Assembly (NCBI GenBank): GCA_035540635.1
Contig: DATLGH010000094.1
Location: 1 to 49,503, forward strand
Source: Egibacteraceae bacterium
GTDB taxonomy: Bacteria; Actinomycetota; Nitriliruptoria; Euzebyales; Egibacteraceae
Length of the DNA stretch: 49,503 nt
Direction of reading: 5' to 3'
How positions within the stretch are numbered: position 1 is the first letter of the stretch; each line of letters starts with the position of its first letter. The notes beneath the pieces are model-generated. The model saw only the letters and a list, made by a program, of their open reading frames with translations, had not been told where the DNA came from and did no database searches. This document shows positions 40,274 to 44,756 of the stretch, piece by piece. Made by a program: the position numbers and the translations under genes.

Positions 40274-41014
40274 ATGGCCGATGTCGAGGCACCCCTCACC
40301 CGCCACAGCCCCAAGGCGAGGCGGGCGCCGGTGATCCTCGATCGGCTGGACGACGCGTACGACGGGGGCGTCGTCGAGCTCGACTGGACGACGCCTTTCG
40401 AGCTGCTCGTCGCGACGATCCTGTCGGCCCAGTCGACCGACAAGAAGGTCAACGAGGTGACGAGGACGCTCTTCGCCACCTACCAGACTCCGCAGGCCTA
40501 CCTCGCCGCGGACGAGGAGGCGCTCCAGCAGGCGATCTACCAGACGGGGTTCTACCGCCAGAAGACCCGCAGCATCCGGGGCATGTGCCAGGCGCTGCTC
40601 GAGCGCCACGGCGGCGAGGTTCCCCGCACCATGGCCGAGCTCGTGGCGCTTCCCGGCGTGGCGCGCAAGACCGCCAACGTCGTCCTGGGCGCCGCCTTCC
40701 CCGACGCCCACCGCGCCGACCCCGAAGCAGGCATCGCCGTCGACACGCACGTGAAGCGCCTCTCGCGCCGGTTCGGGTTCACCCGCCACACCGATCCCGA
40801 GCGCATCGAGCGCGACCTCATGCGCCTGCTGCCCAAGGAGACGTGGCCCACCGCCAGCCTGTCGATCATCCTCCACGGTCGGCGGGTGTGCGAGGCGAGG
40901 CGACCGCGGTGCGCGGACTGCGTCGTCGAGGAGCTCTGCCCTTCCTCGCAGGTCGCCGGGTGCACGGACAAGGCGCGGCAGGCGGTGGGTGTGGGCGGAG
41001 GGCGCCACACCTAG
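40274..41014 (+). CDS. nth: Endonuclease III (Nth)
   Basis: A bifunctional glycosylase/AP-lyase that removes oxidised pyrimidines. The 246-residue protein has the helix-hairpin-helix LPGVARKTANVVLGAAF with the catalytic Lys, the catalytic Asp in AVDTHVKRLSRRFGF, and an iron-sulfur loop with Cys206-x6-Cys213-x2-Cys216-x5-Cys222. ATG 40274 is 8 bases after TACACT. The gene stands between the two potassium-transport units. Its last bases overlap the convergent gene by 4. Confidence 0.96.
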   Translation: MADVEAPLTRHSPKARRAPVILDRLDDAYDGGVVELDWTTPFELLVATILSAQSTDKKVNEVTRTLFATYQTPQAYLAADEEALQQAIYQTGFYRQKTRSIRGMCQALLERHGGEVPRTMAELVALPGVARKTANVVLGAAFPDAHRADPEAGIAVDTHVKRLSRRFGFTRHTDPERIERDLMRLLPKETWPTASLSIILHGRRVCEARRPRCADCVVEELCPSSQVAGCTDKARQAVGVGGGRHT

Positions 41015-41763
41015 CCGCGTTCGCGACGACGGGCGATGAGCCGCTCGGTGCCGGCGGTGGCGAGGGCGAGCGCGGCGAGCACCGCCGCGGCGACCTGCCG
41101 GTCGCGCAGCGGCGGGTCGGACCGTGGTGCGCCGGCGCGCAGGACCTCCACGGATGCCGCCCGGATCACCGCGACCTCCTGCGAGCCCGGGTCGACGCGG
41201 CGGAACACCCCGACGACCTCCACGAGGTCCCCCTGTGCCCCTGGCCCGCCGACCGTCCCGAGCTCGTCGGCGAGCTCGTCGGGCAGGAAGACGCCGATGC
41301 CCGCGTTGTGGCCCCGGTAGCTGCGGTGCCCCGGCAGCGGACCGGCCGGACCGGCGTAGACGTCGTCGTTGATCTGCGCCCAGGCGCCGCCCTCGCGGCG
41401 CAGCACCCCGCCGACCGCCTCGCCGCGGTAGCGCACCCTGCGCCGGTCGAAGGAGTGGGGGCAGTCGAGCAGCTCGGACGAGCTGACCGCGACCGGGGGG
41501 CGCGCGGGCTGCAGCGTCGAGACGGCGTCGTCGTCGCGCTCGTCGGGTGGTGCGGGAGTGGGACAGTGCAGCGGCGCTCGGAGGTCGGCGCGCTCGTCGG
41601 CCACGGCGATCGTCGAGGGGCCGGGCGGCGGGCGCAGCGCCTCGGCGAGGCCGACGATGCCCGCCAGCGCGACCACAGCGACGAGGGTGCCGAGCAGCAC
41701 CCGGCCTCGCCGCAGCGGCTTGTCGGCGCGGCCGCCCGCTCGCCCGCGCGGTCGCGCGCTCAC
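41011..41763 (-). CDS. Two-span membrane protein with OB-fold-like domain, coupled to trkH
   Basis: A 250-residue protein with no recognised family name. A basic N-terminus precedes a span at about 23-42 (VLLGTLVAVVALAGIVGLAE). The central part (about 95-215) is strand-rich, with VRYRGEAVGGVLRREGGAWA and GDLVEVVGVFRRVDPGSQEV, like a small OB-fold. A second span and basic tail (VAAAVLAALALATAGTERLI) close it. GTG 41763 overlaps the trkH stop by 4 bases, so it is the last gene of the potassium uptake operon. It may be an accessory factor for the transporter; function is inferred from context only. Confidence 0.7.
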   Translation of the reverse strand: MSARPRGRAGGRADKPLRRGRVLLGTLVAVVALAGIVGLAEALRPPPGPSTIAVADERADLRAPLHCPTPAPPDERDDDAVSTLQPARPPVAVSSSELLDCPHSFDRRRVRYRGEAVGGVLRREGGAWAQINDDVYAGPAGPLPGHRSYRGHNAGIGVFLPDELADELGTVGGPGAQGDLVEVVGVFRRVDPGSQEVAVIRAASVEVLRAGAPRSDPPLRDRQVAAAVLAALALATAGTERLIARRRERG

Positions 41764-43262
41764 GTGCGTCCCCGCAACATCGACAGGACGTAGCCACCGA
41801 GGGCGAGGGCGGCGAGGAACTCGAGGCGCCCGATGAACATCTGGGCGATGTAGAGCAGTTTCAGCGGCCACTCGAGGTCGGGGCGCACGATGCCGACCGA
41901 AAGCCCCCCGGTGGCCCCCGCCGCCGTGCTCTCGAACAGGCTCAGGGTGAGCTCGTAGCCGTAGAACAGTCCGAGGATCCCGCCCGCGAGGTAGAGGAGC
42001 AGGTAGAGGAGCAGGATGGTCGCGGCGCCCCGCACGAGGTCGTCGCGGAGGACCCGCCGCGTGGTCGAGTGGTAGCTCTCCACGACGACGGCGTTCTCCG
42101 GAAGCAGGACCTTGCGGATGTCACGCCGCAGCCCCTTCAGCAGCACCCCGATGCGGATCGCCTTGATCCCGCCGGCGGTCGAGCCCGCCATGCCGCCGAG
42201 CGCCATGGCGGTCACCAGCATCGCCGGGGCGAGCGCGCCCCACTGGGTGACGAACAGCCGGTGGGGGATCGTGGTGAGCCCCGTCGTGGTGTGGGCGTTG
42301 ATCGTCTGGAAGAAGCCGACCCGGAAGAGCCCGCCGAAGTCGGTGTGCACGCCCGTGCGCCCCAGCCCGACGGCGAGCACCGCGAAGATCGCGATGATCG
42401 ACACGGCAAGCGTGCGGGTCTCGAGGTTGCGCGACAGCTCGCCACGCCGGCCCTGCCAGAGCTGGTAGTGCAGGGCGAAGCTGAACGCCCCGGCGACCAT
42501 GAGCACCATGAGCACGACCTCGACCGGCTGCGAGCGGTAGAACGCGGCGCTGGCCGACTGCGGGGCGAACCCCGCGGTGTGGAAGGCGGTCGTGAACAGC
42601 AGCGCGGCGTGGTAGGCGGCGGTGGCGGCCTCCAGGCCCCCGCGCCACAGCAGCAGCCACAGCAGCCCCATGCCCATCCCCGCGTAGGCGACGACGACGC
42701 GGAGGATGAAGCGGGCGGTGTGCGTGATGTTCGGCAGGATCCGCTCGCCGCGGCCCTCGCCGGTGTGGAGCGTGCCGATCACCGCGCCCGCGCTCGCGAA
42801 GATCGTGAGGACGACGAGGATGATCCCCTGGCCTCCCATGAGCTGCATGATGTGGCGCCAGAGGTTCACGCTACGCGCCATGTGGTCGAGGTCGTTCGCG
42901 AGCGTCAGCCCGACGGTGGCGAAGCCGCTCATGCCCTCGAAGTAGGCGTCGAGGTAGGACGCGTAGTGCCCGGACAACAGCAGCGGCACCGCGCCGAAGA
43001 CGGGCGCGACGAGCCAAGCCGAGCCGACGACGGCGAGGCCCCGGGCGGCGTCCAGGGTCGTGCGGGTGCGCAGGAGCTGGCTCGCGGCGCCGACCGTGAT
43101 CGCGAGCGAAGCCCCGACGACGAAGGCGTACGCGTCGTTGCGCTCACCGGCGCCGACCGCGACGACGAGCGGGAGGAGCATCGCCACCCCGACCGCGTAC
43201 ACTACCTTGCCGGTGTAGCGCCCGATGACGCGCAGGTCGTCGGCCGAAGGGCGGAAGAGCAC
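41760..43262 (-). CDS. trkH: TrkH/KtrB-family potassium uptake channel subunit
   Basis: A 500-residue membrane protein with four M1-P-M2 repeats. The selectivity loops read GMSGFATVGLT, TTAFHTAGF, INAHTTTGLT and AAGATGGLS, each with the central Gly that coordinates K+. It imports K+ and is gated by cytoplasmic RCK proteins, two of which are encoded just upstream. GTG 43262 starts 15 bases after the small membrane-protein gene. The stop overlaps the next gene by 4 bases. Confidence 0.94.
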   Translation of the reverse strand: MLFRPSADDLRVIGRYTGKVVYAVGVAMLLPLVVAVGAGERNDAYAFVVGASLAITVGAASQLLRTRTTLDAARGLAVVGSAWLVAPVFGAVPLLLSGHYASYLDAYFEGMSGFATVGLTLANDLDHMARSVNLWRHIMQLMGGQGIILVVLTIFASAGAVIGTLHTGEGRGERILPNITHTARFILRVVVAYAGMGMGLLWLLLWRGGLEAATAAYHAALLFTTAFHTAGFAPQSASAAFYRSQPVEVVLMVLMVAGAFSFALHYQLWQGRRGELSRNLETRTLAVSIIAIFAVLAVGLGRTGVHTDFGGLFRVGFFQTINAHTTTGLTTIPHRLFVTQWGALAPAMLVTAMALGGMAGSTAGGIKAIRIGVLLKGLRRDIRKVLLPENAVVVESYHSTTRRVLRDDLVRGAATILLLYLLLYLAGGILGLFYGYELTLSLFESTAAGATGGLSVGIVRPDLEWPLKLLYIAQMFIGRLEFLAALALGGYVLSMLRGRT

Positions 43263-43277: not shown

Positions 43278-43415
43278 TCAGTACAGCAACGAGATGACGA
43301 GGGCGACGACGGCCGCGGCGGCGGCCAGCCCGACCGTCGCCGCCGTCACGAGGGCGATGCCGACGAGGCCGCCCCGCAGGATCGACTCGGCGCTGTCGCG
43401 GTCGCGGCGGGCCAT
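43278..43415 (-). CDS. 45-residue single-span membrane protein in the Trk operon
   Basis: A short open frame lies in the gap between the second RCK gene and trkH. ATG 43415 is 3 bases after the RCK stop, and its TGA at 43278-43280 is 15 bases before the trkH start. The product has a charged N-terminus, MARRDRDSAESILRGG, then one long hydrophobic helix rich in Ala, Val and Leu, ending VALVISLLY. Position, packing and G/C third bases support a real gene. It could be a small accessory subunit, by analogy with KdpF in the Kdp potassium pump. It is too short for most automatic gene calls. Confidence 0.65.
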   Translation of the reverse strand: MARRDRDSAESILRGGLVGIALVTAATVGLAAAAAVVALVISLLY

Positions 43416-43418
43416 CGG

Positions 43419-44090
43419 CTACCGCCGCCGGTTGTCGAGGACCGCGGCCCGCAGCTCGTCCTCGAGCTGGGGTGTGGTGAGCGCGATGACCCGGTCGGCC
43501 GGCTCGAGGCGCGTGTCGCCCCGCGGGATGATGATCTCGTCGTCGGCGCCCCGGAAGATGCACACGAGCACCGACTGCGCGGGCAGGTGCATGTCCGCCA
43601 CGGTGTGCTCGGGGCGCTCGGCGCCGCGGGGGATGTCGATCTCCACGAGGTTGACCTTGCCCCGTTGGAGGGTCGTGAGGTGGATGAGCTCGCCGACGGT
43701 CACCTCCTCGCGGATGAGCCGGGAGATGAGCGTCGTCGTCGACACCGCCTCGATGCCCATCCGCGCGAAGATCTCCTCGTTGCGGGGGCTGTTCACCCGG
43801 GCGATCGCCCGGGGCACCCCGAACGAGGTCAGGACGAGCTGGCAGGCCACGAAGTTGTCGTCGTCGTCACCAGTGGTGGCGGCGAAGACCTCCGCCCGCT
43901 CGGGGCGAGCTTGTTCGAGGTAGCGCACGTCACACGCGTCCCCGTGGATGACGAGCAGGTCGTGGTCGCGCAGCAGCTGCTCGCAGCGGCGCTCGACCTT
44001 CTCGATGATCGTGACCGTGTGTCCCTCGGCGAGGAGGTCCACGGCGATGAAGCGCCCGACCTTGCCGCCGCCGGCGATGACGACATACAC
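43419..44090 (-). CDS. RCK-domain potassium transport regulator (TrkA/CeoC-like)
   Basis: A 223-residue cytoplasmic regulator: Rossmann RCK_N with MYVVIAGGGKVGRFIAVDLL and IIEKVERRCEQLL (nucleotide-binding), DACDVRYLEQARPERAEVFA, then RCK_C ending DRVIALTTPQLEDELRAAVL. It binds nucleotides and gates TrkH. The paired RCK gene is immediately upstream (3 bases between them), as in the ceoB-ceoC pair of mycobacteria. The 45-residue membrane-protein gene follows after 3 bases. Confidence 0.92.
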   Translation of the reverse strand: MYVVIAGGGKVGRFIAVDLLAEGHTVTIIEKVERRCEQLLRDHDLLVIHGDACDVRYLEQARPERAEVFAATTGDDDDNFVACQLVLTSFGVPRAIARVNSPRNEEIFARMGIEAVSTTTLISRLIREEVTVGELIHLTTLQRGKVNLVEIDIPRGAERPEHTVADMHLPAQSVLVCIFRGADDEIIIPRGDTRLEPADRVIALTTPQLEDELRAAVLDNRRR

Positions 44091-44093
44091 GGT

Positions 44094-44756
44094 TCAGAGG
44101 TCCTCGGCGAAGGGGTGCTCGACGAAGCGGCGGAGCTTCTTGTGCGCTCCCCGTCCGACGGCCGCCACGACGAGGTCGCCGGCCTGGAGGCGGTCGTCGG
44201 AGGACAGGATCCGCACCCGCGCCCCGCGCTGCACCGCCGCGATCCGCAGGGGGCCCGTGGCCTCGAGCGTCGCCACGGTGATGCCGTGGCCACGGTCGTG
44301 CACGCGCATCTCGACGACCTCGACGTCACCGTCGAAGCCCACGTGGAGGGGGAAGGTGCCCGCCTGCAGCTCGTTCATTATCGCCTTGGCGACGAGCCGG
44401 GTCCCCGAGACGTAGTGGACGCCGATCTTGCGGTAGGACTCCTCGCGCTCGGGGTTGAACAGGCGCGCGACGGTCTTGCGGACGCCGAAGAGCTCTTTTG
44501 CGATCTCCACCGACATGAGGTTGGCGTTGTCGAGGTCGGTGACCGCGATGAGGGCGTCGGCGCGCTCGATCCCCGCCTGGACGAGCGCGTCCTTGTCGGT
44601 GATGTCGGCGGTGACCGTCTCGCCGTTGAAGGTGGAGCCGATGCGGTCGAACGCCCGCTCGGCGATGTCGAGCACGACGATGTCGTGACCGTCGTCGGAC
44701 AACCGGTCGGCGAGCTCTGCCCCCACCCGCCCGCACCCTCCGATGATGACGTGCAT
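44094..44756 (-). CDS. RCK-domain potassium transport regulator (TrkA/CeoB-like)
   Basis: A 220-residue paralogue of the next gene: [20 protein letters not shown] and [15 protein letters not shown] form the nucleotide-binding fold, followed by [20 protein letters not shown] and an RCK_C domain with [15 protein letters not shown]. The two RCK proteins probably assemble into a mixed ring beneath TrkH. ATG 44756 heads the five-gene potassium operon. A CATACT hexamer at 44766-44771 ends 8 bases from the ATG, in the leaderless pattern. Confidence 0.92.

Follow-up and report, generated by a model that had tools for sequence, protein, structure and literature searches.

What does the short interval ahead of trkH encode in a potassium uptake operon of an Egibacteraceae bacterium? 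The window analyzed here is the whole 49,503-nucleotide stretch of contig DATLGH010000094.1, and its minus strand carries a Trk K+ uptake system (TrkA/TrkH) in which both the TrkH subunit and RCK proteins are present. TrkA is split here into two separate genes for TrkA-type proteins, RCK1 (44094..44756, 220 aa) and RCK2 (43419..44090, 223 aa). Both exceed the cut-off for TrkA_N (Pfam PF02254, 4.6e-27 and 8.5e-27 respectively), while TrkA_C (PF02080) is over cut-off only in RCK2 (1.9e-8) and weak in RCK1. The TrkH K+ channel/transporter subunit (41760..43262, 500 aa, GTG start) matches PF02386 over cut-off with E=1.2e-36, and it has a PDB relative in Vibrio TrkH (4j9u/3pjz, E~1e-25).

Between RCK2 and trkH, the first-pass annotation had picked out a frame for a 45-residue membrane protein, and this small open reading frame (smORF) indeed lies at 43278..43415, on the minus strand, which that annotation had omitted. 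It starts with ATG at 43415 and stops with TGA at 43280-43278, and its 45-aa product, MARRDRDSAESILRGGLVGIALVTAATVGLAAAAAVVALVISLLY, has a charged, net basic head followed by one hydrophobic stretch, in keeping with the charged head and single membrane helix first described. The reported spacings are also correct: the RCK2 stop (43419) lies 3 nt before the smORF and the trkH GTG (43262) 15 nt after it. The operon is tightly packed, but the smORF does not fill the only gap between otherwise overlapping genes as had been thought, since RCK1 and RCK2 are 3 nt apart and a true overlap is seen between TrkH and the next gene (GTGA at 41763-41760). That next gene (41011-41763, minus strand), whose GTG start overlaps the TrkH stop, encodes a protein of ~250 aa with terminal hydrophobic stretches and no match in a Pfam search. 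Judged by eye, similar proteins recur either 3′ of trkH or in the interval separating tandem trkH copies (loci L132, L297, L312, L314, L315, L316 and L321), and the protein may be another TrkH-linked component.

Is the smORF a gene? With the 45-residue sequence as a whole-genome tblastn query against 41 relatives, a check put forward at the first pass, the interval between RCK2 and TrkH accounts for 19 of the 20 best loci. A second survey used the RCK2 protein as query and inspected the gap afterwards, so that loci were chosen independently of the smORF. Rather than the unconserved or broken frame that would speak against a gene, the gap holds a single-span ORF in all 52 RCK2-trkH pairs of Nitriliruptoria, the class to which the window belongs, and in 30 of 32 pairs from the rest of Actinomycetota (82/84 pooled). 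These ORFs encode 34-66 aa, mostly 42-57, the shortest of them (L068) being without a clear start codon. The synonymous-site test suggested at the same time gives a pN/pS of 0.44 in frame for substitutions between close pairs, versus 1.32 and 1.65 in the two shifted frames, with 51% of the changes at codon position 3. A strongly hydrophobic stretch occurs in frame at 82/82 loci, but neither the other sense frames (0/82) nor the antisense frames (0/82) show one. GC content by codon position (0.76/0.53/1.00) resembles that of the flanking genes, as in TrkH (0.69/0.47/0.97). The gap survey, the pN/pS values and the frame-specific hydrophobicity thus establish the smORF as a genuine protein-coding gene under selection; together with the tblastn loci they rule out a chance ORF. 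Further afield, a search of Halobacteriota gave no match but is uninformative, as there was no positive control in that group, two Methanocellales loci with the order RCK1-TrkH-RCK2 have no such ORF upstream of TrkH, and a search of plasmids found none.

Granting that the gene is real, it could still act through its translation and not through its product. Of the 82 loci, 40 share 4 nt between the RCK2 stop and the smORF start (ATGA/GTGA) and 10 share 1 nt. At the other end, a 4-nt overlap of the smORF stop with the TrkH start is seen in many loci outside Nitriliruptoria, and trkH usually begins with such an overlap or only a few bases away. Tight junctions on both sides would be expected if the smORF were a translational coupler acting in cis or a leader for membrane targeting: its translation would expose the trkH start and carry the ribosome to the membrane, and the peptide would have little function of its own. 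A GAGGCGGG stretch at the smORF stop in the window could be a ribosome-binding site. Such a coupler or leader is the main rival to a function of the peptide on TrkH, but protein-level constraint disfavors it and we consider it unlikely. A leader needs neither the amino-acid constraint (pN/pS 0.44 versus 1.3-1.7) nor the invariant Gly, nor the near-invariant Glu and conserved helical face seen outside Nitriliruptoria (below), and RCK2 could couple to trkH directly, as in locus L245, where the gap between them is 2 nt.

If the peptide itself is functional, its partner could be either TrkH or the RCK proteins. In the common arrangement the smORF directly follows RCK2, with an ATGA/GTGA overlap in most genomes, and the peptide has a charged cytosolic tail, both of which would suit a peptide that works with the RCK (TrkA) proteins, perhaps by anchoring their ring to the membrane. 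Gene order elsewhere shows that the smORF is linked to trkH and not to the RCK genes. In six genomes from other Actinomycetota (L283-L288) the order is smORF-trkH-x-RCK-RCK-RCK2, with the smORF still directly 5′ of trkH and no longer beside RCK2. Among 20 Nitriliruptoria trkH copies that are either separate from the RCK operon or part of a tandem, seven (L309-L311, L313, L317, L318 and L320) have their own smORF directly upstream and no RCK gene in the upstream stretch examined. An RCK partner is distinctly unlikely in the face of these loci. Additionally, one genome (L289) has two trkH copies with a smORF for each. Upstream of the smORF and trkH at two of the seven loci, L320 (G035:C4) and L313 (G045:C101), lies a gene whose C-terminus resembles, by eye, that of OmpR-type response regulators, a neighbor that suggests K+ or osmotic regulation.

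The linkage has exceptions. The other 13 of the 20 Nitriliruptoria copies, which include tandem second copies, have no smORF directly upstream. They also include the second trkH in the genome studied here (G000:C6:55315-56811; L297/L303), which is 63% identical to the window TrkH and has no RCK gene directly upstream either. Outside Nitriliruptoria, the two RCK2-trkH pairs without a smORF are L245/L290 and L217/L291 (genes 35 nt apart, where the contig ends). TrkH therefore does not strictly need the smORF in cis, and from the rearranged loci, the extra trkH copies and these exceptions we conclude that the smORF tracks TrkH and is very common without being universal. The first-pass proposal that it could be a missing subunit of actinobacterial Trk is supported for Actinomycetota lineages with this TrkH, but not for all Actinomycetota nor for some of the extra trkH copies. 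Two other features were noted in these surveys. In L209 (G269) and L210 (G132) the conserved N-terminus and the remainder of TrkH are read in different frames, through a frameshift or a sequence error. In Eggerthellaceae (L142-L185), close relatives of RCK2 occur with a partner RCK gene and no detectable TrkH within the DNA examined; with no TrkH nearby, they must serve another transporter.

That some trkH copies manage without the smORF would also be compatible with a transient action on TrkH, in folding, quality control or as a protease adaptor, in place of a stoichiometric subunit, and small single-span proteins often act as transient factors. We regard such a role as highly unlikely, as a subunit would more typically show linkage to trkH and apparent co-translation at a similar level, a consideration that is not decisive. 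A different relation to TrkH, in which the smORF is an N-terminal extension reached by stop-codon read-through or frameshifting, could be imagined from the window and about 20 relatives, where the smORF is in frame with trkH. It is ruled out by the variable frame and stop codon: most relatives have the smORF out of frame with trkH or overlapping it, and its stops vary between TGA, TAG and TAA. A helix with its N-terminus inside and its C-terminus outside would, moreover, leave its end on the wrong side of the membrane for the TrkH N-terminus.

What would such a peptide look like in the membrane? Two alignments were built, one of 39 Nitriliruptoria sequences and one of 28 from elsewhere in Actinomycetota (67 in total). 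A Gly near the helix start is invariant in both (39/39 and 28/28); in the window peptide it is G19, ~26 residues from the C-terminus. Four residues further on there is a Glu in 27 of the 28 sequences from outside Nitriliruptoria and mostly Val within the class. Counting from the Gly as 0, the conserved positions form one helical face, with Val or Glu at +4, Leu/Ile at +11, Ala/Gly at +15 and Ile at +18. Conservation is periodic at 100 degrees in the outside-class set (permutation p 0.009-0.016) and not significantly so by permutation in the Nitriliruptoria set alone. Homology between the two sets is only weakly indicated by a profile match (hhalign E=0.0011, probability 20%) and draws in addition on position, equal helix length and the shared Gly. 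With the two conservation profiles anchored at the Gly, their Spearman correlation is 0.39 when the Gly itself is left out (p 0.04). The window gene falls within the proposed TrkH-associated small single-span family, being an ORF directly 5′ of trkH within the range of ~40-66 aa and having the invariant Gly at its helix start.

The N-terminal tail carries a net positive charge in 75 of 82 loci, from which an N-in/C-out orientation is predicted for the single putative transmembrane helix. AlphaFold2 was run on a fusion of the window peptide and TrkH across the intervening stop, with alignment rows from the window and related loci only, and returned one continuous helix over residues 5-45. Confidence is moderate (pLDDT ~57-67 over residues 11-50), and as the fusion could impose a topology that is wrong, the helix is readable while the model gives no usable contacts or docking information.

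Taken together, we favor with reasonable confidence the reading that the smORF product is a dedicated small partner of TrkH, probably a subunit, that packs via its conserved face and stabilizes TrkH or tunes its gating. Conservation, coding constraint and linkage to trkH away from the RCK genes all support the earlier suggestion of a missing subunit, with association with TrkH itself inferred from these genomic patterns. In the scheme we envisage, translational coupling would yield the peptide at or near 1:1 with RCK2 and TrkH, and the peptide would be inserted N-in/C-out. Its conserved helix face would then pack against the transmembrane surface of TrkH, where it would most likely stabilize or assemble the TrkH dimer or tune its gating by the RCK ring, in a role much like that of KdpF in the pump that contains KdpA. 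In the most speculative step, the variable, charged cytosolic N-tail could touch the RCK ring. The gene, its conservation and its linkage to trkH are the observed parts of this scheme; binding, stoichiometry and any effect on K+ flux are inferred. We lean, somewhat less firmly, towards the wider reading that many Actinomycetota have an undescribed third Trk component, a stoichiometric single-span subunit whose intramembrane Glu/Val and Gly would stabilize TrkH or set its gating.

Neither the window peptide nor the 67 aligned relatives have a significant Pfam match, and NCBIfam and a PDB sequence search gave no match; the smORF family, which is absent from Pfam and NCBIfam, offers a defined set of residues (Gly, Glu/Val). 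Among the open-access papers searched, none describes a small or accessory TrkH subunit; an earlier description may exist in others. Additional factors have been described for related transporters. SapD is an ABC-type ATPase, and neither TrkE (SapD) nor KtrE is known as a single-span membrane peptide with its gene next to trkH. Some TrkH/KtrB systems need such factors, according to work cited in PMC9898762. Another K+ transport operon, that of the KhtTU/CpeAB K+/H+ antiporter, likewise has a conserved small ORF (KhtS/CpeC) together with a gene for an RCK_C protein, but here the transporter is a 13-TM antiporter and not TrkH (PMC10117811). Streptomyces venezuelae is reported to lack TrkH.

Trk is a main bacterial route of K+ uptake, and TrkH and TrkA are the only components of its solved complexes. 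In those of Vibrio parahaemolyticus (PDB 4j9u, 6v4j-6v4l), an RCK ring gates a TrkH homodimer, and the window TrkH and RCK genes are related to these components, but the PDB entries and paper examined include no third single-span subunit. If our reading is true, models and reconstitutions of TrkH miss a component across a large part of one phylum. The closest analog in role, by analogy only, is KdpF, the accessory subunit of the KdpFABC K+ pump, also a very small hydrophobic single-span protein encoded upstream, beside a K+-channel-like SKT protein. KdpF belongs to another complex, whereas the smORF (34-66 aa) lies outside any kdp operon with RCK1, RCK2 and TrkH as neighbors; membership of the KdpF family is ruled out, there being no match to a curated model and no kdp operon. 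KdpA and TrkH are distantly related (PMC6987127, PMC10654040), and the parallel with KdpF in this distantly related pump suggests that proteins of the K+-transporter superfamily repeatedly recruit single-span partners.
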